Origin: Bacteroidales bacterium
GTDB lineage: Bacteria; Bacteroidota; Bacteroidia; Bacteroidales; F082
Direction: 5' to 3'
Length of the DNA stretch: 33,202 nucleotides
NCBI GenBank assembly: GCA_017538795.1
Contig: JAFYIE010000007.1
Location: 1 to 33,202 of the forward strand
The notes under the pieces were generated by a model that saw only the letters and a list, made by a program, of their open reading frames with translations, was not told the DNA's origin and did no database searches. A program made the translations under genes and the position numbers. Positions 9,927-33,202 of this stretch are shown here, in pieces; positions within the stretch are counted from its first letter, which is position 1, and each line of letters starts with the position of its first letter.

Positions 9927-12900
9927 TTATTTAACAACAATTTTCTGCGTCTTATCATTCAACTTGAAGATGTAAACGCCATGCATTGACGGAGCGGTTA
10001 TCGTTGTTTCGCCGCTTACACGCACTGTCGAAACCCTGCGTCCCATCACATCGAAAATCTGAAGTTCACCTTCACCGTTGACAATGATGTCTGAGCCGTT
10101 TTGCCAAGCAAATGTTGAGCTCTCAAAGCCAGCCGGGTTCTCAGAGTACTCTAATCTGACAATAAATCTGTTCTCGTTGTCCTGCTTCGAAGCAATGAAT
10201 GAATATTCACCTTCAAGAAGCATATCCACATCTTCACCTGTAAGCCTGTCGATGACATGCAGATAGCTGTAGTTACCTTTTGTTTTGCAGCTCAAAGTAT
10301 ATTTGCCTGTTGTCATCGCCTTGAAGTTAAGCTCGAACGCCTTGGTGTCGTCGTTCATCATCGCGATAGCGAAGTTCTCGTCGTTCTGTGGGATGTAAAG
10401 CATCGGAACATCCTGGTTACGATGGCTGATCTTGTTCAAGCCATGACCTTCATCAAACATCGCATATGTAACATCCGAGTATTCCGAGTTCCCCACCGTA
10501 AACATGATGTTGTCGTGGTTGGCTTTTGCAGAAGCGTTGGTGTAGGTAACGTCTAATTTTTTCCCATCTCCAGTTGAATTAGCCTGAACAAGAATACCTG
10601 CGCCTGGTGCTATTGCGACATCATCATCTCTAACGCTCCATGCACCACCATCTAAAACGTAGTATCCTGTTTCGAGATATGTGTTCGAAATGGCCACACC
10701 TTTATATATATCCATCTGATAAGGGTTTCCTACGAAGTTGAAACCGATGATGCTTGGGTCGCTACCACTTCTTGAAAGAGTGTAGTCTGAAATGTCTGAA
10801 GTATTGAGAGCGCCTTCTATGGTGATATCCATTGTGGCTGCGTTACGGTAGAGGTAACCTCGGCTGTTTGTGAGATTTGCAAAGTAGCTTGTGTGAGCTT
10901 TGTAGTTTACCCATTCTTTGTCAGCCGACTCGTCGTACATATACAAATCGTATGTTCCCGTGATGAGGTTTGTGTTTCCGATAGCAGGGGTGTTGATTGT
11001 TGAAGCAAATGCCTCCCAAGCTGCTGCTTTCGTGTTGCCTGTGACATGTCTTTTCACTGTGGCGTTAACTGAAGCGTCTTCAGGAAGAATGATTTGACCG
11101 CCGTCTTCGATGATGAGGGTTCCGCCATCTTCAATAGTTAAATAATTTCCAGCATCTAATATTCCTCCATCTTCAATTGTAAGCGTTTGACCTGATTCGA
11201 TAATTGCTGGAGCATTAAGCGTGACTGTTGTATTGATATCCACATCATCATCAATAATTCGGGTGAATTTCCTGGCAACAGATTTTGTAAACACTACAAC
11301 CACACTACTGGTTTTTCCTGTTTCGCCACCAACAATTGTTTTGAAATAGCCTTTGCCAGTGCCGGCATCACCAGAACTCGGTTGTGCCGTTGTACCATAA
11401 TAGGTAGTGAATGAGCCTGCAGTAGATGTTACTATAACAGATTTTACAGTTCCTAAATCAGTGCTATTATATAAATATCCAGCACTTTTCTGCCATTGCA
11501 TTAAACTACTACTCTGTTGTATTTGATAAGAATAGCATGTAACACTCATTGTTTCTCCTGTTGCTGCCGTTGCTGTTTTGTTTTTAGTATAACCATTGTT
11601 AATTGCATAACTCTCTGTTGTAAAATCATCTTTATCTATTGTAAAACTAAATGTAGCAGGTTTTGTTCCTGAGAAAACAGCATAAAGATTTGTCGCTCCA
11701 GCAGGAGTGTACGTGCCTGTATAAAGTGTGCTCAAGTCTTCCTCATTATCAGTCCATCCTGCAAATGTAAATCCAGACGGAACATAAGCAGAAATATCAC
11801 CTGCTGTTTTCAATGTCATTTCATCGCCTTCTGTAACATTGACAGTTGCTAATAAAGCGCCATTAACGTAATATTTTACATCGACTTTTTCAATTGCTCT
11901 AGTTGTAGCACTGACAGTAACAGCATAATCCGGCATCGTGAAAGTATTACTTGTCACAGTAACCTTTGTTGCCGGAGTGTCTGTTTTATATACATTCCAC
12001 TCATCAATAATATAATCTGCACTTGGTGTGGATGCCAATGTTACTGTAACACCTGGTTTCACATAGGCACTGCCATCTTCATCTATAGCAGATTGGCCTG
12101 ATGGTGTTGCTGTGTTGGTAATATTTGCAACAGTTGCAACGTCTAATTGATATGTGTTAGTTTTTTTGTAAAGATAAGGTTTTGTACCAGTACCAGTTGC
12201 ATAACTAGCCCAACCTGTACCTTCATTTCTCCTCAAAAATTTGTTATTGGGGTCAGTACCTTGACTACGAGCATAATTAATAAAATTGTAAACCCCATTA
12301 TCTACTTCTACAGTCCATTTTGCATTGTTAGTGACACTTGACAACAAATCAGCAGTGTTTTTCGCTGTCTTACTTCCTGCATATTTCTTTTCATCAACGT
12401 TATATATTGTCCAATATGAAGTTTCGCTTATATTTGCAATATGCCATGTAACATCTGCCTCTGTGGTGGCATTGGCAATCACCATATCATTACCGCTCAC
12501 ATAAATATTTGTTGTTTGATTTGCAAATTTATCTGTATTAGAACCTTGAAGGGCATTTTTCATTGCGGCACCATCTGTAGCATAAATTACATAATCGCCT
12601 TCAGCAATATCGCCAGTATATTTTACAAAAGCATTGCCAACTGTGCCGCTAATAGTAACGTTATATTCCGGAACAGTGAATTTGTTGTCCGTAACAGTTA
12701 CTTTTGTTCCTGTCTCACCAGTTTTATAAACATCCCAAACAATGCCTTTACCTGCGGCAAGACCATCAGCTCTTAATGTAATTTCTGTGCCATAAGCGAC
12801 ACTAGCATTTCCACTTTCAGCAATTACGTTGTTTCCGTAAACAGCAGTGATAATCTCACTTGCACTACCTATAGAAGCAACTATAACAGTGTGTTTTCCA

Positions 12901-14198
12901 GGAGCCCATTGCGCATATAATGTGGTGTTTGCTGTAATTTCGAATTCGTCTCCATATTCATAATCCGTTCCATTTCCATCGTTTTGCGTGTTCCAAATAG
13001 AAAAATCATATCCGTCGCGTATAAAAGTATTATTTAAAACCGTCACCGTTGAGCCAGATGTATAAGGACTATTTCCATCTGTCATTGTGCCTGTGCCGCC
13101 GTTGGCATCGTAGGTTACAGTGTAAACCGCCTCAAACACAGCTTCAAGATTGGCATTGGCTGTTCCCATGGTGAATGTCGTAGGATTTGTGGTTTCGCTT
13201 TCTACACTTGAACCCGAGCCTGTGACATTCCATTTTTTGAATCTGTATCCTGAATTTGGCGTTGCTGAAATGTTCATAACACCGCCCTCGGCAACTGGTG
13301 TGTTTGTTGCAACAGGTCTTCCTTTATTAACGGTGACAGTGCCGTTCGTGGCTGTATATTCGAAATTATGTGGTGTTGCAAAATATGCTGTAACAGTTGC
13401 GTCAGCTGTTCCCATTTTGAAAGCTGTTGTATCTGAATTGACATTATATAATGTACTTCCAGTTCCACTTACTGCCCAGTTTTTAAATGCATAACTTGCA
13501 CTGCTTGGTGTCGCCGTGAGATAAACTTTCGCGCCTTCAGCGACACTTGCGCCACTCGCAACAGCACTGCTTCCACCATCTACACCTGTGATAGTTCCGT
13601 TGGTTACTGAGTAAGTGAGAGTGTGGTTAGTCGTTGTTCCTGCCGTTTTAACTTTCAAGACAATATCATCAAGACGACAGTTATCTCCTGTTGATGTATT
13701 TGTAAATGTTAAATCAAAAGTTTCTGCAGACTTGGTATTAGCAATAGTATATGAATAAGCTGTTTTTGAATCCAAAGTAATCGTTATTCCGCTGGTACTT
13801 GAGGATAATGTTAAGTTTTTATTAATTTTAAATGTTAGAGTCATATCCACAGCTCCACCAGTTGATATGCCCGAAATAGAGAACGTACCAGAATTACCAC
13901 TCTTAGTTTTGCTAACCAGCAGCTCTGGCTTCGTTCCTCCAGCTAACGCCTCATTATATGTTTTTGTATCGGTATAGCCATTTGAACAGGCATAAGTTAA
14001 GGTTACACCACCATAAACTGTTGTACCGGTATGACTATTTTGGATGCTTCCAGTGGGTGCATCACCAACCGTAAATCCACTAAAATCTTCAGACCATAAA
14101 GTGGTATTAGCAGCAGCTTGTCCTTTTGCCATTTGGGGCATGTTGATCATAGCCAACAGCATTAAAGCTGCGATTAAGATTGTAAAAGTTTTTTTCAT
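9927..14198 (-). CDS. large T9SS-secreted surface protein with InlB-type repeats
   Basis: 1423 residues. A signal peptide ends near residue 26 (KGQA). Residues about 34-190 form a jelly-roll-like domain starting LWSEDFSGFTVGD. From about 195 to 530 come InlB B-type repeats: 'YSVTNGTITGVDGG', 'YTATNGTVTVNKG', and the Listeria-Bacteroides type 'VTYDANGGTGTMTDG' ending in LYAQW. A middle region follows, with two more such units near 700-860. A stretch with repeated TIEDGG follows (about 1010-1050), then a module of about 300 residues shared with the 780-residue protein at 16102. The C-terminus 'GVYIFKLNDKTQKIVVK' is a T9SS type A sorting domain. It is probably an outer-surface adhesin. The 5' leader is long, with a -7 box at 14537-14544, and contains a large hairpin. 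Confidence 0.9.
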   Translation of the reverse strand: MKKTFTILIAALMLLAMINMPQMAKGQAAANTTLWSEDFSGFTVGDAPTGSIQNSHTGTTVYGGVTLTYACSNGYTDTKTYNEALAGGTKPELLVSKTKSGNSGTFSISGISTGGAVDMTLTFKINKNLTLSSSTSGITITLDSKTAYSYTIANTKSAETFDLTFTNTSTGDNCRLDDIVLKVKTAGTTTNHTLTYSVTNGTITGVDGGSSAVASGASVAEGAKVYLTATPSSASYAFKNWAVSGTGSTLYNVNSDTTAFKMGTADATVTAYFATPHNFEYTATNGTVTVNKGRPVATNTPVAEGGVMNISATPNSGYRFKKWNVTGSGSSVESETTNPTTFTMGTANANLEAVFEAVYTVTYDANGGTGTMTDGNSPYTSGSTVTVLNNTFIRDGYDFSIWNTQNDGNGTDYEYGDEFEITANTTLYAQWAPGKHTVIVASIGSASEIITAVYGNNVIAESGNASVAYGTEITLRADGLAAGKGIVWDVYKTGETGTKVTVTDNKFTVPEYNVTISGTVGNAFVKYTGDIAEGDYVIYATDGAAMKNALQGSNTDKFANQTTNIYVSGNDMVIANATTEADVTWHIANISETSYWTIYNVDEKKYAGSKTAKNTADLLSSVTNNAKWTVEVDNGVYNFINYARSQGTDPNNKFLRRNEGTGWASYATGTGTKPYLYKKTNTYQLDVATVANITNTATPSGQSAIDEDGSAYVKPGVTVTLASTPSADYIIDEWNVYKTDTPATKVTVTSNTFTMPDYAVTVSATTRAIEKVDVKYYVNGALLATVNVTEGDEMTLKTAGDISAYVPSGFTFAGWTDNEEDLSTLYTGTYTPAGATNLYAVFSGTKPATFSFTIDKDDFTTESYAINNGYTKNKTATAATGETMSVTCYSYQIQQSSSLMQWQKSAGYLYNSTDLGTVKSVIVTSTAGSFTTYYGTTAQPSSGDAGTGKGYFKTIVGGETGKTSSVVVVFTKSVARKFTRIIDDDVDINTTVTLNAPAIIESGQTLTIEDGGILDAGNYLTIEDGGTLIIEDGGQIILPEDASVNATVKRHVTGNTKAAAWEAFASTINTPAIGNTNLITGTYDLYMYDESADKEWVNYKAHTSYFANLTNSRGYLYRNAATMDITIEGALNTSDISDYTLSRSGSDPSIIGFNFVGNPYQMDIYKGVAISNTYLETGYYVLDGGAWSVRDDDVAIAPGAGILVQANSTGDGKKLDVTYTNASAKANHDNIMFTVGNSEYSDVTYAMFDEGHGLNKISHRNQDVPMLYIPQNDENFAIAMMNDDTKAFELNFKAMTTGKYTLSCKTKGNYSYLHVIDRLTGEDVDMLLEGEYSFIASKQDNENRFIVRLEYSENPAGFESSTFAWQNGSDIIVNGEGELQIFDVMGRRVSTVRVSGETTITAPSMHGVYIFKLNDKTQKIVVK

Positions 14199-14260: not shown

Positions 14261-14316
14261 CCACTCCGCTTCGCTCCGGTCGAAATGACAATAAAAAAAG
14301 GCGTCAGTCATTTCGC
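14261..14316. repeat. dispersed-type inverted element (TCCGGTCGAAATGAC)
   Basis: The plus strand has TTTCTCCACTCCGCTTCG followed by CTCCGGTCGAAATGAC (to 14289), a phrase I recognise as recurrent in intergenic DNA of Bacteroidota. CGAAATGAC (14281-14289) is matched by GTCATTTCG (14307-14315) as an inverted repeat. Only one copy is visible here. Confidence 0.45.
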
Positions 14317-14329
14317 TTTCGCCTATCTG

Positions 14330-14443
14330 CTCGGAGGGCTCTGGTAAGCCTAAGCTGTAATAAGCACGAAATACTCACGCCAAAATGCGCGATCTTCCGC
14401 CTGCTTATTCCCCAGCTTTAAAAAATTTACCAGATTTTCCGAG
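14330..14443. other. long imperfect hairpin, candidate structured leader RNA or miniature element
   Basis: Four nested complementary segments: CTCGGA (14330-14335) with TCCGAG (14438-14443), CTGGTAA (14341-14347) with TTACCAG (14427-14433), AAGCTG (14352-14357) with CAGCTT (14413-14418), AATAAGCA (14359-14366) with TGCTTATT (14402-14409). The loop is about 35 nt. It lies in the 554-nt gap between 14198 and 14753, inside the putative 5' leader of the large T9SS gene. No coding capacity was seen in the gap. Confidence 0.6.
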
Positions 14444-14450
14444 TGAGAAT

Positions 14451-14467
14451 AAGAGCGTAAAGCTCTA
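14451..14467. other. small hairpin AGAGC-GTAAA-GCTCT
   Basis: A short stem (AGAGC at 14452-14456, GCTCT at 14462-14466) next to the long hairpin, within the same leader region. No function assigned. Confidence 0.35.
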
Positions 14468-14536
14468 AGTTATAATATGTTACAGTTTTTTCTTCTACAT
14501 AATCTTTTCGTTTTACGATATTTTTTGCTCAGGGCG

Positions 14537-24682: not shown

Positions 24683-24722
24683 TCCCGCCCTGGTACGCTG
24701 TTCAACGGGAAGCGTGGCGGGA
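24683..24722 (+). terminator. hairpin after holA
   Basis: TCCCGCC (24683-24689) pairs with GGCGGGA (24716-24722), and inside it ACGCT (24695-24699) with AGCGT (24711-24715). It lies 4 nt after the stop. No strong T run follows, so it is a probable rather than certain terminator. Confidence 0.6.
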
Positions 24723-24816
24723 ACTATCTGGCTGCAAAAAATACAAATTATTTCTATATATGCAGCTTATTGTAGAATTTTTTCAAAAAAAATTTCATTA
24801 TTATTAAAATAAGTTG

Positions 24817-25089
24817 TATTTTTGTGTCGATTTATGAGCAGTCGATGACTGCATTTTATTGAAAAACAACGAAGCGTTATGCTTTGCTTGTAATTGGAAA
24901 TGTGAGAAGTTTTCAAAGGGTTGCAAGCAAGTGTAAGGTTCACGCCTAGGCGTGGACTGTTTGCATTTCCCCAACCCAAGGTCTTTCTCACAACCTCCAA
25001 TTAAGGAATGCATTTCAGTTCCACGCTTCATTCATTAATTAACTGGTTATTTTTCCATGATGGGACTGACATGGATGGAGGGAATAAAA
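24817..25089 (+). ncRNA. conserved structured leader RNA, copy 1
   Basis: The promoter -7 box TATTTTTG (24817-24824) is followed by about 260 nt without a gene, almost identical in layout to 30064-30338. A hairpin GCAGTC/GACTGC is near 24838-24852. The main structure at 24891-25003 has nested stems: TAATTGGA/TCCAATTA, GTGAGAA/TTCTCAC, GGGTTG/CAACCC, AAGTGTAA/TTGCATTT and TTCACGCC/GGCGTGGA. A last stem, CAGTTCC (25016-25022) with GGGACTG (25062-25068), ends just before a strong Shine-Dalgarno-like GGAGGG (25077-25082), which suggests control of translation of the gene at 25090. The in-frame ATG at 25057 is rejected as a start. Confidence 0.75.
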
Positions 25090-25776
25090 ATGAAAAAAAA
25101 CTTACACCTTCTCATGACAGCTATCATGCTGTTTGCGTTCTCAACATTCTGCAATGCTCAAGATGACTACAAAGAGTTTATGAAAGAACGTAAAGAAATT
25201 TCTAAATTTACCAAAGACCAATTAAGAGAAAAAGTGTCGAAATCAACCCAAAAAGAAGCCAAAAAACTTCAAAAAGAAGGTTGGAAAGTGTCTCCAGGAG
25301 CTTTGCCACTTGACAAGCAACTCGAACGTGCTTATCAGATGCAGTATGAGCTTGACATGGAAACCGGCTTTCCAAAATATATCCAAGGTACAGCTTCATC
25401 AGTAGGTGGGTCTTATGACGCAGCCAAAATGCAGGCAATGAATCTTGCAAAGATAGAATTGGCAGGCAATATCGCAACCGAAGTCGGTGCACTCATCGAC
25501 AGCCGCGCAAGCAATAATGATCTAGGCCAAACCGAAGCTGAATCAGTGTCAAAATCAGTGATGGCAGCCAAAAGTCTTATCCAACAGAAAATTGGAAGAA
25601 CCATTCCGATAGTGGAAGTTTATCGTGATTTCAAAAACAAAAACAAAGAAGTGCGAGTCATTATTTTATATAATAGTGAAATGGCAAAAGCTGCAGCCAA
25701 AGAAGCCATTCGCGAGGAGATGACAAAGCAATCAGACAAGCTCGCCGACCAATTGGACGAAATCTTAGGTTTCTAA
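25090..25776 (+). CDS. secreted LPP20-like protein, caspase operon 1
   Basis: 228 residues from MKKNLHLL, 8 nt after a GGAGGG ribosome-binding site. The signal peptide ends in CNAQ. Residues 25-65 are a highly charged helix or coiled coil (KEFMKERKEISKFTKDQL). The second half has 'AAKMQAMNLAKIELAGNIATEVGALIDSR', resembling the LPP20 / FlgT-N type domain, and 'KNKEVRVIILYNSEMAKAAAKEAI'. It should be periplasmic or bound to the envelope. The paralogue at 30339 is very similar along its full length. Gap to the DUF4384 gene is 3 nt. Function unknown; possibly a structural or assembly partner of the downstream proteases. Confidence 0.85.
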   Translation: MKKNLHLLMTAIMLFAFSTFCNAQDDYKEFMKERKEISKFTKDQLREKVSKSTQKEAKKLQKEGWKVSPGALPLDKQLERAYQMQYELDMETGFPKYIQGTASSVGGSYDAAKMQAMNLAKIELAGNIATEVGALIDSRASNNDLGQTEAESVSKSVMAAKSLIQQKIGRTIPIVEVYRDFKNKNKEVRVIILYNSEMAKAAAKEAIREEMTKQSDKLADQLDEILGF

Positions 25777-25779
25777 ACC

Positions 25780-26628
25780 ATGAAAAAATTATTTTTTTCA
25801 ATTATACTGATGGTATTCGCCCTCGTGTGTCACGCACAAAAAACGGTCAATGTGAGTGGCGAATACCGTTATGTTGTACCCGAAAACGTTTCAATAACCG
25901 ACGCCAAGAACATCGCCATTGACAAAGCTAAAAATGAAGCGATGGCAAAGGAGTTTGGAACGCTTGTTTCGCAAACAAACACCAGTACTATTAAAACCGT
26001 TGACGGCAAAGTTGAGACCGACTTCATGTCAATTGGCGGCACTGAATCGAAAGGTATTTGGCTCGCCGACACCAAAGAGCCTGAAATCAATATTCTGTAC
26101 GAAAACGGTGTGATGGTAGTTGAGGCTAAAGTTTGGGGCAAGGCGAGGGAAATCAAAAACTCCGAAACGGATTTGGATATAAAGATCCTTTGTAACGGAA
26201 TTGAAAGCGAAAGTTTCAAAAATAATGACAAATTTTCCATTGATTTAAAATCGGCATCCAAAGGCTATGTGGCGATTTTTCTGCGTGGCGACAACATAGA
26301 AGACCCAATTTATTGTCTGTTACCATACGAAAATGAAAACGGAGAAGCTCGTGCCGTGAAAAACGGTACAAAATACACATTCTTATCAAAAAAAGACCCT
26401 ATTTATCCAGTACCTGAGGAAATAATTCTGACAACAAATAAAACCTTAGAATACAATGCAATTATAATAGTTTTTTCGAAGAATCAATTCACTCTTCCTC
26501 TTTCAGAAATGGGAGAGTATGTGCTTGAAATACCAGCCGAAAAATTCCAGAAATGGCTTCGCAAAAACCGTGTCAATGACGAGACTATGCAAGTGGTTGA
26601 AAAAACTATCGAAATAAGAAAAAAATAA
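25780..26628 (+). CDS. secreted DUF4384 protein with LPP20/FlgT-like N-terminus, operon 1
   Basis: 282 residues. The signal peptide ends in CHAQ. The N-terminal half, 'GEYRYVVPENVSITDAKNIAIDKAKNEAMAKEFGTLVS', looks like an LPP20/FlgT-N domain. The C-terminal half is a DUF4384-type beta-sandwich: 'FSIDLKSASKGYVAIFLRGD', 'IYCLLPYENENGEARAV', 'YTFLSKKDPIYPVP' and 'YNAIIIVFSKNQFTLPL'. DUF4384 is often found in or next to caspase-like peptidases, matching the two caspase genes that follow. Probably periplasmic and part of the same complex. The paralogue at 31031 has an insert of about ten residues before the last part. Confidence 0.85.
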   Translation: MKKLFFSIILMVFALVCHAQKTVNVSGEYRYVVPENVSITDAKNIAIDKAKNEAMAKEFGTLVSQTNTSTIKTVDGKVETDFMSIGGTESKGIWLADTKEPEINILYENGVMVVEAKVWGKAREIKNSETDLDIKILCNGIESESFKNNDKFSIDLKSASKGYVAIFLRGDNIEDPIYCLLPYENENGEARAVKNGTKYTFLSKKDPIYPVPEEIILTTNKTLEYNAIIIVFSKNQFTLPLSEMGEYVLEIPAEKFQKWLRKNRVNDETMQVVEKTIEIRKK

Positions 26629-26647
26629 ATTGAAAAATATCTACATC

Positions 26648-28318
26648 ATGAAAAAAATCAAATTATTGGCAATATTATTGATCATAGTAATGGTATTGCC
26701 GTCGTGTGCTACACTTTTTAAACGTAAAGTGACATTCACATCAAACGTTTCTACTGCCGACGAACTTACAATAGGCAAAGTGACATATTATGATGTTACA
26801 TTTCCATTTTCAGTTCGTTTAAAAGGAGGATATGGTAAGACAAAAGTTTATGCAAAAACTAATGACAATCAAGTTGCTACTGCCGAGATTCGAAAAAAAT
26901 TCAGAACAATGTTTATTTTTGATGCACTGTCATATGGTATACCTGGTATTATAGATATATTTTCAGGAAACGTCACAAAACCTGTGCAGAAAGAAATTCG
27001 TCTAAATTTTAATGGACAAAATAGTGTTCCGAATGAAAATGGAAATACTAATGCTATTGCAAAGAATAAACTTCCTCAGCAACCAGCTATAGCTGCACAA
27101 GCAGATATAAAAGTGATTTACATTTATTATACCAATGTCATTAGTAACAATTATAATAATACAATATTTATTGAAGATGATTACGCTACAGATGTAAAGA
27201 ACTATTCGTATATAAGAATATATACTGATGAGCAAAGATTATTAATAGACAATAAATTTGCAACCAATGGAACAACATTCGAAGAACTGAAAGCAATGAA
27301 AGGCAATAAGTTTGAGTTGCGCATGAACAACAACAAAGAGTACTATATTTTTATATCTGGCGGCAATCTACAAGAAAAAGACAAAGCTGATTTTGATAAG
27401 AAATTTTCTAAATTAAATTTCTCTGGAGATTATATATATAAAGATAAAAAAATCACACAACCAGAGTCGTACCAACAACCGGTGGCATCGTCTATAGCAG
27501 CGGCTACACAAATCACGAATGCGCATTCTGCTGCAATTATTAAAAGTGATGTCGATACAGCTCCTATATCAAATTCAAAATCACCAAACACATTCGTTTT
27601 AATCATCGCTAACGAACACTACACTTTCGTTGACAATGTTGATTTCGCCATTCATGACGGAGAAGTCTTCAAGGAATATTGCATCAAGACTTTGGGTGTG
27701 CCGGAGAGACAGGTTTGGTTCTACCAGGACGCTTCAGCAGGTATCATCTCTGGTGGTGTAGACAAGATGGTTCAGGCGATGAGTCTGTTTGAAAATTCTA
27801 AAGCCATCGTTTATTACTGCGGTCATGGCATCCCGGATGAGCACACAGGAGATGCGTACATCGTTCCAACTGATGGTAAGGGTACCAATACGGCGACTTG
27901 TTACAGTCTTAACAAAATGTACACCACTTTGGCAAAATCTAATGCAAAAAGTGTGACTTATTTCATGGATGCATGTTTTAGCGGAGCTAACAAAGAAGGT
28001 TCGATGCTCGTTGCGGCACGTGGTGTAGCCCGTGAAGCTAAAAAAGAAACACTCAAAGGCAACACTATTGTGTTCTCGGCAGCATCTGGAGATGAGACGG
28101 CGATGACGTACAAGGAGAAAGGACATGGTCTGTTCACATACTTCCTTTTGAAGAAACTCCAGGAAACCAAAGGTGATGTTAGTTACGGTGACCTTGACAA
28201 ATACATCAAGGATAACGTAAAACGCGAATCATTCCTCACTAACGAGAAAGTGCAGAATCCTACCACGAACGTCAGCGAGAACGCAGTTAATAGTTGGAAA
28301 CAGATGAGGTTGAAATAA
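26648..28318 (+). CDS. lipoprotein with C-terminal caspase (C14) domain, operon 1
   Basis: 556 residues from the ATG at 26648. The lipoprotein signal ends in LPSC with lipidated Cys20. Residues 22-120 form a beta-rich domain with a PEGA-like look (VRLKGGYGKTKVYA, then a hydrophobic 'FDALSYGIPGIIDIF'). A linker, a second alpha-beta region, a Q/A-rich linker and the motif SDVD (300-303) follow. The caspase p20-like domain starts at TFVLIIANEHY. The dyad is clear: His393 in YYCGHGIPDE and Cys443 in MDACFSGA. A p10-like end follows (FSAASGDETAM, GLFTYFLLKKL). It is exported, unlike the cytoplasmic caspases of known bacterial defence systems. Substrate and Asp or basic specificity are unknown. Confidence 0.9.
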   Translation: MKKIKLLAILLIIVMVLPSCATLFKRKVTFTSNVSTADELTIGKVTYYDVTFPFSVRLKGGYGKTKVYAKTNDNQVATAEIRKKFRTMFIFDALSYGIPGIIDIFSGNVTKPVQKEIRLNFNGQNSVPNENGNTNAIAKNKLPQQPAIAAQADIKVIYIYYTNVISNNYNNTIFIEDDYATDVKNYSYIRIYTDEQRLLIDNKFATNGTTFEELKAMKGNKFELRMNNNKEYYIFISGGNLQEKDKADFDKKFSKLNFSGDYIYKDKKITQPESYQQPVASSIAAATQITNAHSAAIIKSDVDTAPISNSKSPNTFVLIIANEHYTFVDNVDFAIHDGEVFKEYCIKTLGVPERQVWFYQDASAGIISGGVDKMVQAMSLFENSKAIVYYCGHGIPDEHTGDAYIVPTDGKGTNTATCYSLNKMYTTLAKSNAKSVTYFMDACFSGANKEGSMLVAARGVAREAKKETLKGNTIVFSAASGDETAMTYKEKGHGLFTYFLLKKLQETKGDVSYGDLDKYIKDNVKRESFLTNEKVQNPTTNVSENAVNSWKQMRLK

Positions 28319-28350
28319 TTTTTTATACTAATACTTTTTCGAAAAAAATT

Positions 28351-29673
28351 ATGAAAATAAGTACTATAAAATCATTGACCACTTTTTTGCTGCTGGTTTT
28401 ATGTGGTTTAATGCCGGCTTTTGCGCAAAATAACGGGTATTCAACTATCTATATACGTTGTGAAAGTAATATCGCTTTCTCTAACATTGTTGAGATTAAT
28501 GGACAACATTTAACCACTATGCCACATCGTAGTTACATAGTTATAAAGTCTAACTATGATAAGTTATTATTAAGGCAATGGTGCTTTCAAAAAGGAACTT
28601 CTTATGAATCAATTATAGAAAAAGATAACAAACGAAAAAGGAAAACTCCTGTTTATGAAATTTTGTTAGCTCCAAATTCAGAACATTATGTGGGACTTGA
28701 AGGTGGTCTCATTAATGAAATAACGAAAAGTACTTTTGAAAAAAAGAAAGAAAAATTTACGTTCCATGGAGAATATGTTTTATATGATAATAATTCTAAC
28801 ATTATTGAACAAAACGATATTCCACAACAAGCACAATCAATTCAGCAATCAATCGCACCTGAACCTGTTGCAGCTGCCGCTACAGAGGTGTTTGTTTCAG
28901 ATGTTGATGTAAACATCCCGGCAACAGGCAAAAAGGCAAGTGACACATTTGTCTTAATCATCGCCAATGAGGATTATCAGTATATCGACAGGGTGAAATA
29001 TGCCGCACGCGACGGTGAGATTTTCAAAGAGTATTGCAAAAATACTTTAGGTGTGCCTGAAAAGCAGATTCGTTATTGTCCGAACGCCACTTTCGGTGTA
29101 ATAAACGGCGGTGTCGATTGGCTTCGCTATGCTTTGGAAAACTTTGAAGGAAGTCGCGGAATAGTTTATTATTGCGGTCACGGCATCCCTGACGAACACT
29201 CTGGCGACGCTTACATAATCCCTGTAGATGGTAAAGGCACAAACATGATGACATGCTACAGTTTGAATGCTCTATATACAACATTAGCAGCTACCAACGC
29301 CGACAACATAACCTATTTCATGGATGCTTGTTTTACCGGTGCCAACAAAGAAGGTTCAATGCTTGTGGCGGCTCGCGGCGTGGCTCGTGAACCTAAAAAG
29401 GAGACATTAGAGGGAAAATCCGTGGTGTTCTCTGCTTCGAGTGGTGATGAGACTGCCATGACCAACGAAGAACAGCACCATGGTTTGTTCACGTATTATC
29501 TTTTGAAGAAAATACAGGATACAAAGGGTGATGTTAGTTACGAGGAACTTGCTGCATACATAAGTAAAAATGTGAAGAAAGATGCATTCTTGTTAAACGA
29601 AAAGCCACAGAATCCTGTTGTGGCAACAAGCCCTGATGCGCAAGATTCTTGGAAAACTATGAATCTGAAGTAA
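28351..29673 (+). CDS. secreted caspase (C14) protease, operon 1
   Basis: 440 residues from MKISTIKS; a longer reading from 28294 overlaps the previous gene. An ordinary signal peptide ends in AFAQ, with no lipobox. The N-terminal 150 residues are a distinct domain (STIYIRCESNIAFSNIVEI and onward), followed by a Q/A/P-rich linker, SDVD at 183-186, and the caspase domain from TFVLIIANEDY. Catalytic His277 (YYCGHGIPDE) and Cys327 (MDACFTGA) are intact. The caspase domain is very close to that of the preceding gene while the N-terminus is unrelated. Ends at a strong terminator. Confidence 0.9.
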   Translation: MKISTIKSLTTFLLLVLCGLMPAFAQNNGYSTIYIRCESNIAFSNIVEINGQHLTTMPHRSYIVIKSNYDKLLLRQWCFQKGTSYESIIEKDNKRKRKTPVYEILLAPNSEHYVGLEGGLINEITKSTFEKKKEKFTFHGEYVLYDNNSNIIEQNDIPQQAQSIQQSIAPEPVAAAATEVFVSDVDVNIPATGKKASDTFVLIIANEDYQYIDRVKYAARDGEIFKEYCKNTLGVPEKQIRYCPNATFGVINGGVDWLRYALENFEGSRGIVYYCGHGIPDEHSGDAYIIPVDGKGTNMMTCYSLNALYTTLAATNADNITYFMDACFTGANKEGSMLVAARGVAREPKKETLEGKSVVFSASSGDETAMTNEEQHHGLFTYYLLKKIQDTKGDVSYEELAAYISKNVKKDAFLLNEKPQNPVVATSPDAQDSWKTMNLK

Positions 29674-29691
29674 CTTACGTTCTAAATTCAC

Positions 29692-29737
29692 ATCCCCGAA
29701 CTTATTGAGAAATCAAACGAGTCCGGGGATTATTTTA
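29692..29737 (+). terminator. terminator of caspase operon 1
   Basis: ATCCCCG (29692-29698) pairs with CGGGGAT (29724-29730), with an inner ACT/AGT pair and a 25-nt-class loop, followed by TATTTTAT. Confidence 0.8.
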
Positions 29738-29738
29738 T

Positions 29739-30002
29739 ATGTTTGAAAATCGCCAGTTGCCAATTGACGATTTTAATGAAGTGAAAGTCAATGAGTTAGA
29801 AATTCGACAAATGGCATTTGCCGAATTTAACGAACAAGATATGGAGGCTTTTCTAAATGTAAGTTTTACAATTCATCATCTGATTCTAACCAAGACAAAA
29901 ACTTTTGAAGAAAGAATGTTTTACATCAGAAGATGTGCAACTGAATTTTGGAGTTATTTAAAAACAGTATCCTTTCAGCGAACAGAACAAAAACATATTT
30001 AG
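29739..30002 (+). CDS. doubtful 87-residue hypothetical protein
   Basis: An open frame beginning right after the operon terminator: MFENRQLPIDDFNEVKVNEL, charged and mostly helical, with 'FEERMFYIRRCATEFWSYLKT'. It has no promoter match and no recognisable family. The first 30 nt contain an inverted repeat (AAAATCG/CGATTTT), so part may be a regulatory or remnant sequence. It lies in the 390-nt gap before the second leader RNA. It may be a remnant of a gene lost when the locus was duplicated. Confidence 0.3.
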   Translation: MFENRQLPIDDFNEVKVNELEIRQMAFAEFNEQDMEAFLNVSFTIHHLILTKTKTFEERMFYIRRCATEFWSYLKTVSFQRTEQKHI

Positions 30003-30063
30003 GTCTAGTAGACATTTTTTAGGATAAAATACATTAAAAAATTCATTTTTAATTAAAAAGTTG

Positions 30064-30338
30064 TATTTTTGTGTCGATTTATGAGCAGTCGGTGACTGTT
30101 ATTTATTGAACAAAATAACGAAGCGTTATGCTTTGCTTGTAATTGGAAATGTGAGAAGTTTTCAAGGGTTGCAGGCAAGTGTAAGGTTCACGCCCCAGGC
30201 GTGGACTGTTTACATTTTCTCAACCCAAGGTCTTTCTCACAACCTCCAATTAAGGAATGTATATCAGTTCCACGCTTCTTTTACTAATTAACTGATTATT
30301 TTTCCATGATGGAACTGGCATGGATGGAGGAAATAAAA
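30064..30338 (+). ncRNA. conserved structured leader RNA, copy 2
   Basis: The same arrangement as copy 1: TATTTTTG (30064-30071), hairpin GCAGTC/GACTGT, and the main structure TAATTGGA (30140-30147) to TCCAATTA (30245-30252), exactly 113 nt as in copy 1. Differences keep pairing: TTACATTT replaces TTGCATTT opposite AAGTGTAA; the apical loop between CACGCC and GGCGTG changes from two to three bases; TGGAACTG (30310-30317) pairs perfectly with CAGTTCCA (30265-30272), where copy 1 has a G-U. It ends at GGAGG and the ATG at 30339. Confidence 0.75.
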
Positions 30339-31028
30339 ATGAAAAAACATTTACACCTTCTCATGACAGCTGTCATGCTGTTAGCATTCTCAACTTTCTG
30401 CTATGCTCAGGAACAATCCTACAAAGAGTTTATGAAAGAGCGTAAAGAAACGATGAAATTCACCAAAGACCAATTAAATGAGAAAGTATCAAAAAACACA
30501 CAAAAAGAGGCCAAGAGACTGAAAAAAGAAGGCTGGGAAGTAGCTCCGGGAGCACTGCCGATGGAACAGCAGCTTGAACGCGCATACAGGATGCAGTATG
30601 AATATGACCTTGAAACAGGTTTTCCGAAATATATTCAGGGCACAGCATCATCGGTGGGCGCGACTTTCGATGCTGCCAAAATGCAGGCTATGAATCTCGC
30701 CAAAATAGAATTGGCCGGCAATATCGCTACAGAAGTCGGCGCACTCATCGACAGCCGTGTCACCAACAATGATCTCGGTCACGAAGAAGCCGAATCAACT
30801 GCCGAATCGGTGATGGCGGCAAAGAGCCTCATCCAACAGAAAATAGGAAGAACCATCCCTGTGCTGGAAGTCTACCGTAACTTTAAAAACAAGAACAAGG
30901 AAGTAAGGGTTATCATATTGTACAACAGCGACATGGCAAAAGCCGCGGCCAAAGAAGCCATACGCGAGGAGATGACCAAGAAAGCTGACAAACTTGCCGA
31001 CCAATTAGATAATATTTTAGGATATTAA
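30339..31028 (+). CDS. secreted LPP20-like protein, caspase operon 2
   Basis: 229 residues, paralogue of the gene at 25090 with the same signal peptide type (ending CYAQ), charged N-terminal helix, 'ETGFPKYIQGTASSVG' and 'AAKMQAMNLAKIELAGNIATEVGALIDSR'. Differences are scattered and conservative, so both copies seem to be under selection. The start was chosen at MKKHLHLL after GGAGG; the in-frame ATG at 30306 belongs to the leader. Gap to the DUF4384 gene is 2 nt. Confidence 0.85.
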   Translation: MKKHLHLLMTAVMLLAFSTFCYAQEQSYKEFMKERKETMKFTKDQLNEKVSKNTQKEAKRLKKEGWEVAPGALPMEQQLERAYRMQYEYDLETGFPKYIQGTASSVGATFDAAKMQAMNLAKIELAGNIATEVGALIDSRVTNNDLGHEEAESTAESVMAAKSLIQQKIGRTIPVLEVYRNFKNKNKEVRVIILYNSDMAKAAAKEAIREEMTKKADKLADQLDNILGY

Positions 31029-31030
31029 GG

Positions 31031-31909
31031 ATGAAAAAAACTGTTTTTTCAATCATTTTGCTGATCACAGCACTCATTTGTCATGCCCAGAAAGTCGTCA
31101 GCGTGAGCGGCGAATACCGTTATCTGGTGCCTGAAAACGTTTCGATAACTGATGCCAAGAACATCGCCATCGAGAAGGCTCGCAACGAGGCTATGGCAGC
31201 TGAATTCGGAACTTTAGTGTCGCAAACCAGCACCAACATGATGAAAACCGTCGACGGCAAGCTTGAAACAGAGTTCGTCTCGATTGGCGGCGCCGAATCA
31301 AAGGGCATCTGGCTCGGCGATACCAAAGAACCTGAAGTGAAAGTGCTTTTTGAAAACGACGTGATGGTTGTTGAAGCCAAAGTTTGGGGCAAAGCAAGGG
31401 AAATCAAGAACTCGGAGACTGATTTGGAGATAAAAATCCTCTGCAACGGCATCGAAAGCGAGCGTTTTAAGGATAAGGACACGTTTTCCATTGATTTCAA
31501 ATCGGCATCGAAAGGCTATGTGGCGATTTTTCTGCGCGACGACATTCTCGATGACCCGGTTTTTTGCCTGATGCCATACAATAACGAAAATGGTGAGCCG
31601 CGTGAAGTTAAAGGCAACACCGTATACACATTCCTTTCGAAAAAAGACCCGCATTACCCTCTTTCTATGGAAAAAAATGGAAAAACTTACTATATGCCGC
31701 CAACAACTCTTACGACCGAAAAAGATGTTGAATATAATACAATAATAATTGTTTTTTCTAAAAACCAATTTGGTATGCCACTTTCTGAAAAAGGTGAATT
31801 TGTGGATGAAATAGATGTTGACAAATTCCAGAAATGGCTCCGCAAGAACCGCCTCAACGACGAGACGATGCAGGTGATTGAAAAAACTGTGGAAATAAGA
31901 AAAAAGTAA
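31031..31909 (+). CDS. secreted DUF4384 protein with LPP20/FlgT-like N-terminus, operon 2
   Basis: 292 residues, paralogue of the protein at 25780. The signal peptide ends in CHAQ, the N-terminal LPP20-like half is nearly the same, and the DUF4384 half has 'FSIDFKSASKGYVAIFLRDD' and 'VFCLMPYNNENGEPREV'. After 'FLSKKDPHYPL' there is an insertion (SMEKNGKTYYMPPT) absent from copy 1. The end, 'KFQKWLRKNRLNDETMQV', is conserved. Codons here are visibly more GC-rich than in copy 1, suggesting the duplication is not recent or that the copies had different histories. Confidence 0.85.
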   Translation: MKKTVFSIILLITALICHAQKVVSVSGEYRYLVPENVSITDAKNIAIEKARNEAMAAEFGTLVSQTSTNMMKTVDGKLETEFVSIGGAESKGIWLGDTKEPEVKVLFENDVMVVEAKVWGKAREIKNSETDLEIKILCNGIESERFKDKDTFSIDFKSASKGYVAIFLRDDILDDPVFCLMPYNNENGEPREVKGNTVYTFLSKKDPHYPLSMEKNGKTYYMPPTTLTTEKDVEYNTIIIVFSKNQFGMPLSEKGEFVDEIDVDKFQKWLRKNRLNDETMQVIEKTVEIRKK

Positions 31910-31927
31910 AACTAAAAATTTATCAAT

Positions 31928-33202
31928 ATGAAAAAAGCACACATATTTAAATTATTGTTTGCGACATTGGTATTAATTGTTGCCTTCTCGAGCTGTTCAG
32001 TGTACAACGAGACGATGGTAAATACAACAAATTCCCCGATAAAACAAAAACTACCATGTATGCAGGTGACTGTCATAAACAACAGCAAAGCAGACAAATC
32101 AAATCCCTATGTATATATAGATCTGATAAAAAATGATTATATAGATCTGATAAAAAATGATCCGGCTTTCGAAATTGTTGAAAAAACAATAACAGAAGAG
32201 CTTAAACACAATGTTGTATCTTATGGAGCTCCTTCAAGTTCAAATTGCAGAATAGAAGTTGTCTGTGAAAGGTTAAACGAGGCTGATGACCAGACATGGC
32301 TTATGCTATCAGCCTGTACATTATTTACTGCCAATTTTTTAGGTTTTCCATGTGATGTTACAAAATGGGATATCAAAATGCAATTTAATATTTATGATAA
32401 TAATGATGAAATCATAAAAAAGTATAAATATAGAGCAACTGACAAATCTCTTTTGGGATTCTATTACGGGAGATGTTATAATGTGGTTTTGGTTGATGTT
32501 ACCAAAAAGATATTGAATGATTTCAGGAAAGATATTGAGCGGGATGCCGAAATGATTACACAAAGGATAAATGAATCAGCTGTGCCACAATACCCAAACA
32601 ACATTTACTACCAGCAACCCGCCATCGCACAACAGCCAGTCCAACAACAGGTTGCGATGCAGCCTGCTACAACAGTTGCTAACAAAACAATAGAATCAGA
32701 TGTTGATGTAAACATCCCTGTAACCGACCGCAAGTCAGACGATACTTTTGTTTTAATTATAGCCAATGAAAATTACAAATATGTTGACAAAGTTGATTTC
32801 GCTATCCACGATGGCGAGGTTTTTAAAGAATATTGTGTCAAGACATTAGGCGTGCCCGAAAGACAGGTTTGGTTCTGTAAGGACGCTACAGTAGGCGACA
32901 TGCTTAATGGTATTGACAAGATGGTCAGGGCGATGAATAAGTTTGAGAACTCGAAGGCCATTGTTTATTATTGCGGCCACGGCATTCCTGACGAGCACAC
33001 TGGCGATGCATACATAATACCGACTGACGGCGATGGCAAGAAAATGGTCACCTGCTACAGTCTCAACAAGCTTTACACGACTTTGGCGGAATCAAAAGCA
33101 ACAAGTGTGACATATTTTATGGATGCCTGCTTCAGCGGTGCCAACAAGGAAGGTTCAATGCTTGTGGCGGCTCGTGGTGTGGCAAGAGAACCTAAGAAGG
33201 AG
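31928..33202 (+). CDS. lipoprotein with caspase (C14) domain, operon 2, cut by window edge
   Basis: 425 residues are visible from the ATG at 31928; the frame is open to the window end. The lipoprotein signal ends in AFSSC. The N-terminal domain (about 30-215) is an alpha-beta fold unrelated to that of the operon 1 lipoprotein and contains a perfect duplication of YIDLIKND. A Q/P/A-rich linker (PAIAQQPVQQQ), SDVD at 257-260, and the caspase domain from TFVLIIANENY follow. Catalytic His351 (YYCGHGIPDE) and Cys401 (MDACFSGA) are present. The p10-like end is outside the window. Same position in operon 2 as the gene at 26648 in operon 1. Confidence 0.88.
   Translation, partial: MKKAHIFKLLFATLVLIVAFSSCSVYNETMVNTTNSPIKQKLPCMQVTVINNSKADKSNPYVYIDLIKNDYIDLIKNDPAFEIVEKTITEELKHNVVSYGAPSSSNCRIEVVCERLNEADDQTWLMLSACTLFTANFLGFPCDVTKWDIKMQFNIYDNNDEIIKKYKYRATDKSLLGFYYGRCYNVVLVDVTKKILNDFRKDIERDAEMITQRINESAVPQYPNNIYYQQPAIAQQPVQQQVAMQPATTVANKTIESDVDVNIPVTDRKSDDTFVLIIANENYKYVDKVDFAIHDGEVFKEYCVKTLGVPERQVWFCKDATVGDMLNGIDKMVRAMNKFENSKAIVYYCGHGIPDEHTGDAYIIPTDGDGKKMVTCYSLNKLYTTLAESKATSVTYFMDACFSGANKEGSMLVAARGVAREPKKE
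32113..32160 (+). repeat. perfect 24-nt tandem duplication inside caspase gene 3
   Basis: Bases 32113-32136 are repeated exactly at 32137-32160. In frame, this duplicates eight residues (YIDLIKND). The absence of any difference suggests a recent event. Confidence 0.9.

Follow-up and report, generated by a model that had tools for sequence, protein, structure and literature searches.

Prokaryotic caspase homologues are on record with starts that resemble signal peptides, in multi-caspase operons of Bacteroidetes and in sigma-factor operons (PMC3501461), and DUF4384 has been linked to caspase domains in cyanobacteria and alphaproteobacteria (PMC8283722, PMC6426788). Structured RNA motifs described from Bacteroidetes include Flavo-1 and Bacteroidales-1 (PMC2864571), and 3161 structured RNAs have been predicted in human microbiomes (PMC8040213). 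The DNA analyzed here, which we call the window, is a whole contig of 33,202 nucleotides (C17, JAFYIE010000007.1) from the metagenome-assembled genome (MAG) of a gut Bacteroidales bacterium, 2.48 Mb in 122 contigs (completeness 93.5, contamination 6.6). It carries two tandem operons in which two genes for exported-looking proteins, A and B, precede one or two caspase genes, and each operon is headed by a copy of a structured leader RNA. This leader is the main finding of our study: a conserved, covarying structure lies between a promoter motif and the start codon, in front of the caspase operons and of many unrelated genes, most of whose products look exported. That it represents a genuine structured RNA family is near certain, and it is very probably part of the downstream mRNA.

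The relevant features of the window are the following.

24817..24824, + strand: promoter-like TATTTTTG, a Bacteroidetes TAnnTTTG motif, read from the sequence upstream of leader copy 1
24868..25030, + strand: structured leader RNA copy 1, 163 nt (cmsearch 182.9 bits; among the five model sequences)
25090..25776, + strand: A1, exported protein with a predicted fold nearest Tip-alpha/Lpp20 (weak)
25780..26628, + strand: B1, exported LPP20/DUF4384-like protein, itself below the Pfam cut-offs
26648..28318, + strand: C1, lipoprotein-type caspase (PF00656), His-Cys motifs intact
28351..29673, + strand: C2, caspase with a plain signal peptide, His-Cys motifs intact
30064..30071, + strand: promoter-like TATTTTTG upstream of leader copy 2, read from the sequence and from the motif statistics of the family
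30117..30279, + strand: structured leader RNA copy 2, 163 nt (cmsearch 187.6 bits; among the five model sequences)
30339..31028, + strand: A2, paralogue of A1
31031..31909, + strand: B2, paralogue of B1
31928..33202, + strand: C3, lipoprotein-type caspase, incomplete at the contig end

These coordinates bear out the two adjacent operons with a shared A-B-caspase order, A1-B1-C1-C2 and A2-B2-C3, that a preliminary description of positions 25090 to 33202 had proposed; leader copy 1 sits just outside that stretch, and the description makes no mention of a structured RNA ahead of either operon. The contig ends inside C3, on the 3′ side of its His and Cys motifs. As that description had also held, every product starts with what by eye is a signal peptide, plain in A, B and C2 and with lipobox-like cysteines in C1 (LPSC) and C3 (FSSC), and the His-Cys dyad is retained in all three caspases (YYCGHG and DACF[ST]G), as it is in the L009 caspase.

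In a DNA alignment, nearly 300 bases are conserved upstream of four A genes, and the strand fold of 24815-25075 has a z score of -4.2 relative to shuffles. A covariance model, R1, whose E-values are rough, was built from five copies: window positions 24868-25030 and 30117-30279, the copy of a third A-B-C operon on contig C118 of the same genome, that of the related MAG L010, and a second C118 copy, which precedes a different exported-protein gene and not A. A family alignment was then taken from the best-scoring matches listed. It comprises 101 copies (99 distinct) from 100 loci, with 80 of the aligned regions hand-picked among the matches listed in 149 relatives, and it leaves aside loci L090, L108, L109, L187 and L188 and the window's first copy. 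Having been fitted to the model, this alignment leans towards it: 91.7% of cells pair in the model structure, 977 cells change on both sides, where shuffles give 285 and slid controls no more than 126, 40 of the 56 pairs in the stored structure have a two-sided change, and the covariation score is 0.514 (0.192 when shuffled and no more than 0.067 when slid). A new fold prediction for the same 101 copies yields 33 pairs, 23 of which show two-sided compensatory changes. The base helix GAAGCGU/ACGCUUC, the adjoining UUAUGC and the apical GCGUGG are near-invariant, while the middle helices vary and covary.

A TAnnTTTG motif, which corresponds to the sigma-A consensus of a flavobacterium (PMC9723704), is found no more than 109 nt upstream of 93 of the 101 copies (shuffled mean 8.9, maximum 19), and it starts 36-54 nt before the RNA in 90 of 94. 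On the other side, 87 of the 101 copies are followed, no more than 300 nt downstream, by the start of a gene of at least 80 aa, at a median distance of 70 nt; its start codon falls 50-79 nt downstream in 58 of these 87. With the gene chosen blind to signal peptides and a crude signal-peptide rule, 65 of the 87 downstream genes look exported, versus 47 of 155 other open reading frames (ORFs) at the same loci; the odds ratio is 6.8 and p is 2e-11, a value that, like the other p-values for the leader, overstates independence because one genus dominates (83 of the 101 copies, with 15 from other genera of the order and 3 from named MAGs) and because best-scoring matches were used. An earlier selection that preferred signal peptides gave 90 exported-looking products in 101 and is not used as evidence. 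The 87 downstream proteins fall into 59 blastp clusters. Among the 59 representatives, Pfam families (25 of the 42 were listed) include type IX secretion system C-terminal signals (3 members), lipocalin-like proteins (2), PorV and BspA leucine-rich repeats, as well as DUF6175, DUF1573, trypsin, WG repeats and an outer-membrane protein barrel.

At the caspase loci, leader copies stand upstream of A1, A2, the C118 operon and the A genes of the related MAGs L010, L011 and L012, the matches in the last two being weaker (E 3e-8 and 4e-7). The leader is also present in L090-L092, of which L090, having an equal score, may be the same species as L010. More broadly, the family occurs in 92 of the 149 related genomes, with up to 13 matches per genome, and in 49 of 198 genomes of the order, representing 38 of 150 genera. 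In a phylum sample it was detected in 8 of 296 genomes; six of these lie outside the order and have one copy each, and in the two whose ORFs were listed (L198 and L199) the copy stands some 55 nt ahead of a gene whose product, by eye, looks exported. An unfiltered scan of the window itself returned a further, weak match (E 1.7e-5) at 14303-14471 on the minus strand, 104 nt upstream of a 1423-aa gene (9927-14198, minus strand) that also looks exported by eye. Rfam 15 gave no match at the leader in the window, L009, L010, 20 loci and 4 distant loci, by gathering score or E-value; in the E-value scans (24700-25100 and the 4 distant loci) chance-level matches lay beside the leader and none at it. 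The leader is not named in the titles and abstract openings of the literature searched, and it may overlap with the motif set of PMC8040213.

The best overall explanation of these findings is, we believe with some confidence, a cis-acting mRNA leader common to envelope and surface proteins, those of the caspase operons included. The data suggest a hitherto undescribed control element shared by unrelated exported-protein genes, and it is a fair guess that the leader reads a shared signal. One could tentatively envision more, namely that the approximately 165-nt leader is bistable and, present on each mRNA, joins exported and surface proteins of Bacteroidales, the duplicated caspases among them, into an RNA-based regulon that sets their output together in response to one signal such as envelope or secretion status; we regard this proposal as possible, though somewhat doubtful.

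Several points weigh against such a leader as the common link, besides the crude export rule and the dominance of a single genus. In all, 22 of the 87 downstream genes do not look exported, and some targets are of cytoplasmic or membrane types (a glycosyltransferase, GtrA). No gene of at least 80 aa lies within 300 nt of 14 of the 101 copies, and an ORF of at least 120 aa overlaps 4 of them. The A-B-caspase clusters of L053-L055 give no leader match up to E 1, and G101, a genome of the same genus, has the leader and no A, B or caspase match in the family searches; leader and caspase operon are thus separable. On the caspase side, activity, location and substrate are predictions, and a fast-changing N-terminal part, found in one of the three pairs compared, is not general.

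A simpler account of the leader would make it a mere stabilizing 5′ hairpin of exported-protein mRNAs that senses no signal. The very stable fold would suit such a role, as would the fact that the targets are unrelated and mostly exported. However, the near-invariance of base and apex exceeds the needs of a plain stabilizer. Furthermore, the apical 3′ arm GCGUGGnCUG is complementary to the basal 3′ strand CAGUnCCACGC, and although both are too invariant for a covariation test, this complementarity could allow a second fold and hence a switch. On balance, the hairpin seems to us unlikely.

The caspase assignment is secure at the level of the domain: Peptidase_C14 is matched above the Pfam cut-off of 21.4 bits by C1 (57.0 bits, E 3e-15), C2 (58.7 bits, E 8.8e-16) and C3 (39.5 bits, E 6.8e-10). 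Matches to the NCBIfam model caspase_w_EACC1 fell well short of its threshold (56 and 50 bits versus 140), and a PDB sequence search with C2 led nowhere, its best match being MALT1 at E 0.25. The N-terminal parts vary among relatives and comprise BspA-type LRR_5, WG repeats, DUF2846 or nothing recognized, in keeping with the swapped N-terminal domains of the preliminary description; its statement that sensor modules are missing was too strong, because in some relatives the caspase itself bears repeat domains. C2 and its L010 counterpart share 94% identity across a slowly changing caspase domain (w 0.06) and 45% across a fast-changing N-terminal part (w 0.58). In the comparison of C1 with the C118 copy, w is 0.13 for the N-terminal part and dN/dS for the pair is 0.061, a rough value because dS exceeds 1; the L011 and L012 caspases have identical N-terminal parts, with no protein change.

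Of the two partners, A eludes sequence-based classification. It matches no Pfam family, and LPP20 (PF02169) is absent from the 25 families listed at E ≤ 0.1 for 21 A-family members. The AlphaFold model of A (pLDDT 79) has no match in the PDB at E 0.001 or better; Tip-alpha (2wcq) ranks first at E 0.009 and Lpp20 (5ok8) third (probability 0.95, E 0.068, TM 0.48 by target), with a ferredoxin-like protein unlike either ranking between them. The model therefore argues weakly for an Lpp20-type fold, so that the label LPP20-like given to A earlier survives as a faint structural resemblance and not as a sequence match. A weak LPP20 sequence match (best E 3e-4) is present in 3 of the 19 B-family members. 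As for the label DUF4384 (PF14326) given to B, B1 (14.7 bits, E 0.03) and B2 (14.1 bits, E 0.05) fall below the cut-off of 27, but 10 of 19 B-family members match at E ≤ 0.1, the best at 1.5e-6. The fold model of B is poor (pLDDT 62), and an NCBIfam search returned no curated family for A or B. Homology between A and B was also considered; profile comparison gave a probability of 6, which is no proof of it. A weak A-like hit (E 8e-4) lies near the end of contig C121 (L082), where several nearby ORFs look exported by eye.

One may ask whether the caspases are simply ordinary secreted digestive proteases, with A and B as unrelated envelope proteins that happen to share the transcript. A survey of 198 genomes of the order located A-family members in 20, B-family members in 18 and caspase domains in 68. 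B stands beside A, within 5 kb, in 12 of 24 A hits. A caspase was found at that distance from at least 9 of 24 A-family hits and at least 11 of 21 B-family hits, these neighbor counts being lower bounds as all A and B hits were compared with 50 listed caspase matches from genomes with A or B hits; A and B are often found without a listed caspase nearby, which makes the partnership of A and B with caspases a loose one. In the phylum sample of 296 genomes, A turned up in 7 and B in 4; these counts include the genome studied here, and all other hits score weakly. The gene set is thus mainly a Bacteroidales one and patchy. Nonetheless, the A-B-C order persists across genomes with different flanks. 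It is seen in L010, L011 and L012, with B-C in L013, and full runs, in which no more than two ORFs separate B from C, are found in G000 (three times), G025, G055 and G021. Moreover, both copies of A and of B are under purifying selection: A1 and A2 are 83% identical with a dN/dS of 0.056, B1 and B2 77% with 0.107, both ratios being rough because dS exceeds 1. These features lead us to doubt the digestive explanation. They also bear on the earlier account, which was staked on the helper genes being conserved next to caspases in other genomes. This check leaves that account standing: the set does recur outside this genome, but A and B are not strict caspase partners. The proteolytic relay which that account proposed is unproven; the facts about the caspases are sound, and the mechanism to be drawn from them is modest.

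The leader could also be the 5′ part of transcripts from which it is released as a small RNA acting in trans. It has a closed structure with its own base helix, and its conserved unpaired stretches could bind a partner. It is difficult to see, however, why a trans-acting RNA should keep a narrow distance to start codons, or why many different genes should each have their own copy, and we consider this quite unlikely. Still more remote is the notion of a mobile palindromic repeat, similar to a miniature inverted-repeat transposable element or an integron-type recombination site, that came to lie in promoters by chance. Many genomes contain several copies, the inverted ends GAAGCGT/ACGCTTC are near-invariant, the window copies also give weak matches on their reverse strand, and two distant copies have, by eye, a transposase-like and a RadC-like ORF nearby, respectively. 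Yet genes start on the same strand at a narrow distance in 87 of 101 copies, whereas divergent starts upstream (54 of 96 copies) are broadly spread in distance; the distance to the promoter is narrow as well, and covariation in the middle accompanies a conserved apex and base. The end boxes of integron attC sites read RYYYAAC and GTTRRRY, and by eye the leader ends GAAGCGU/ACGCUUC have no such boxes. As for an anti-phage or suicide system, which the caspase domain and matches of C1, C2 and C3 to the generic caspase model of PADLOC (version of 2023, E 2e-7 to 1e-4) might evoke, it is highly improbable given that the products look exported and that a scan of the seven proteins up to E 1 returned this generic model only and no anti-phage partner components.

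The history of the locus can be partly read from its relatives. In MAG L010 (Yak_Omasum), the 332-aa gene that lies upstream in the window too, and that by eye is HolA-like, is followed by a single A-B-C operon, a small ORF and, on the opposite strand, a gene that is PurL-like by eye. In our genome, one end of contig C48 (L081, 4346 bases) carries the final 88 codons of a caspase domain, followed by small ORFs and a PurL-like ORF on the opposite strand, the same layout as in L010. This caspase end is perhaps the continuation of C3; no exact end overlap was found between the two contigs. Both layouts fit one ancestral operon at this site that was doubled by tandem duplication, the contig join itself being presumed. 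Between C2 and A2, a short ORF (29739-30002, plus strand) has a sub-threshold DUF1016_N match (E 0.0015) and is possibly a gene remnant.

Neighboring genes elsewhere deserve a brief mention. In L055, B and C are separated by a gene for an outer-membrane barrel. In L059 (9094-10428), B-C comes after a sigma-70-type factor and a sub-threshold zf-HC2-like gene, and a zf-HC2 gene stands before A in L065 (8295-8693), so that control of the extracytoplasmic function (ECF) type is possible for the caspase operons of these relatives, judging from gene content. A neighbor of A, B or C that recurs in six genomes resembles a transglutaminase-fold cysteine protease, with a Cys-His-Asp motif by eye; a Pfam scan of four of these proteins (L056, L059, L065 and L066) found no protease family. 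Their positions are as follows.

L053, 10011-11471: transglutaminase-like neighbor
L056, 5602-8223: transglutaminase-like neighbor
L059, 7622-9097: transglutaminase-like neighbor
L060, 2684-5344: transglutaminase-like neighbor
L065, 5979-7322: transglutaminase-like neighbor
L066, 5524-7002: transglutaminase-like neighbor

An A gene lies near a DUF6175 gene in G010 and G028, with no caspase in the stretch fetched. In L062 (9825-11243) and L072 (8826-10073), A-family genes are near DUF6175 genes and the stretch contains no caspase. The genes headed by the leader RNA likewise include one for DUF6175.

If the leader is indeed a cis-acting control element, each caspase operon would form one transcription unit consisting of the promoter, the 163-nt leader, A, B and one or two caspases. 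The leader would act on its own mRNA, through stability or translation, and might thereby tie envelope and surface proteins to a common signal. The caspases may be proteases that act either periplasmically or at the outer membrane, and their variable N-terminal part could determine which target is cut or where they work; A and B would be envelope partners that form or steer a complex. A shared element of this kind would explain co-regulation of many unrelated exported proteins in Bacteroidales and would assign the exported caspases to a defined set of proteins of the envelope and surface. The list of member genes would be testable at once. With strong covariation and no Rfam 15 match in the scans made, the leader can be probed directly.

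How, then, do these elements compare with known systems? C1, C2 and C3 resemble prokaryotic metacaspases and orthocaspases of the Peptidase_C14 family in their p20-type domain and His-Cys motifs. They differ from the homologues of PMC3501461 in having conserved exported A and B partners and a leader RNA, neither of which is mentioned in the part of that article available to us. In cyanobacteria and alphaproteobacteria DUF4384 and the caspase domain reside in one protein; here a separate exported B, with a weak DUF4384 match, sits beside an exported caspase, and a literature search pairing LPP20 with DUF4384 returned no papers. Helicobacter Lpp20 and Tip-alpha (5ok8 and 2wcq) are the third and first PDB fold matches of A, both weak (E 0.07 and 0.009), and the A family differs from Lpp20 in that none of the Pfam families listed for 21 A-family members is LPP20. 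Finally, the leader resembles riboswitches, protein-binding leaders and motifs such as Flavo-1 and Bacteroidales-1 in presenting a conserved, covarying fold before coding regions. In contrast to such known leaders, it has no Rfam match in the scans made, and its targets are many unrelated genes rather than those of one pathway.

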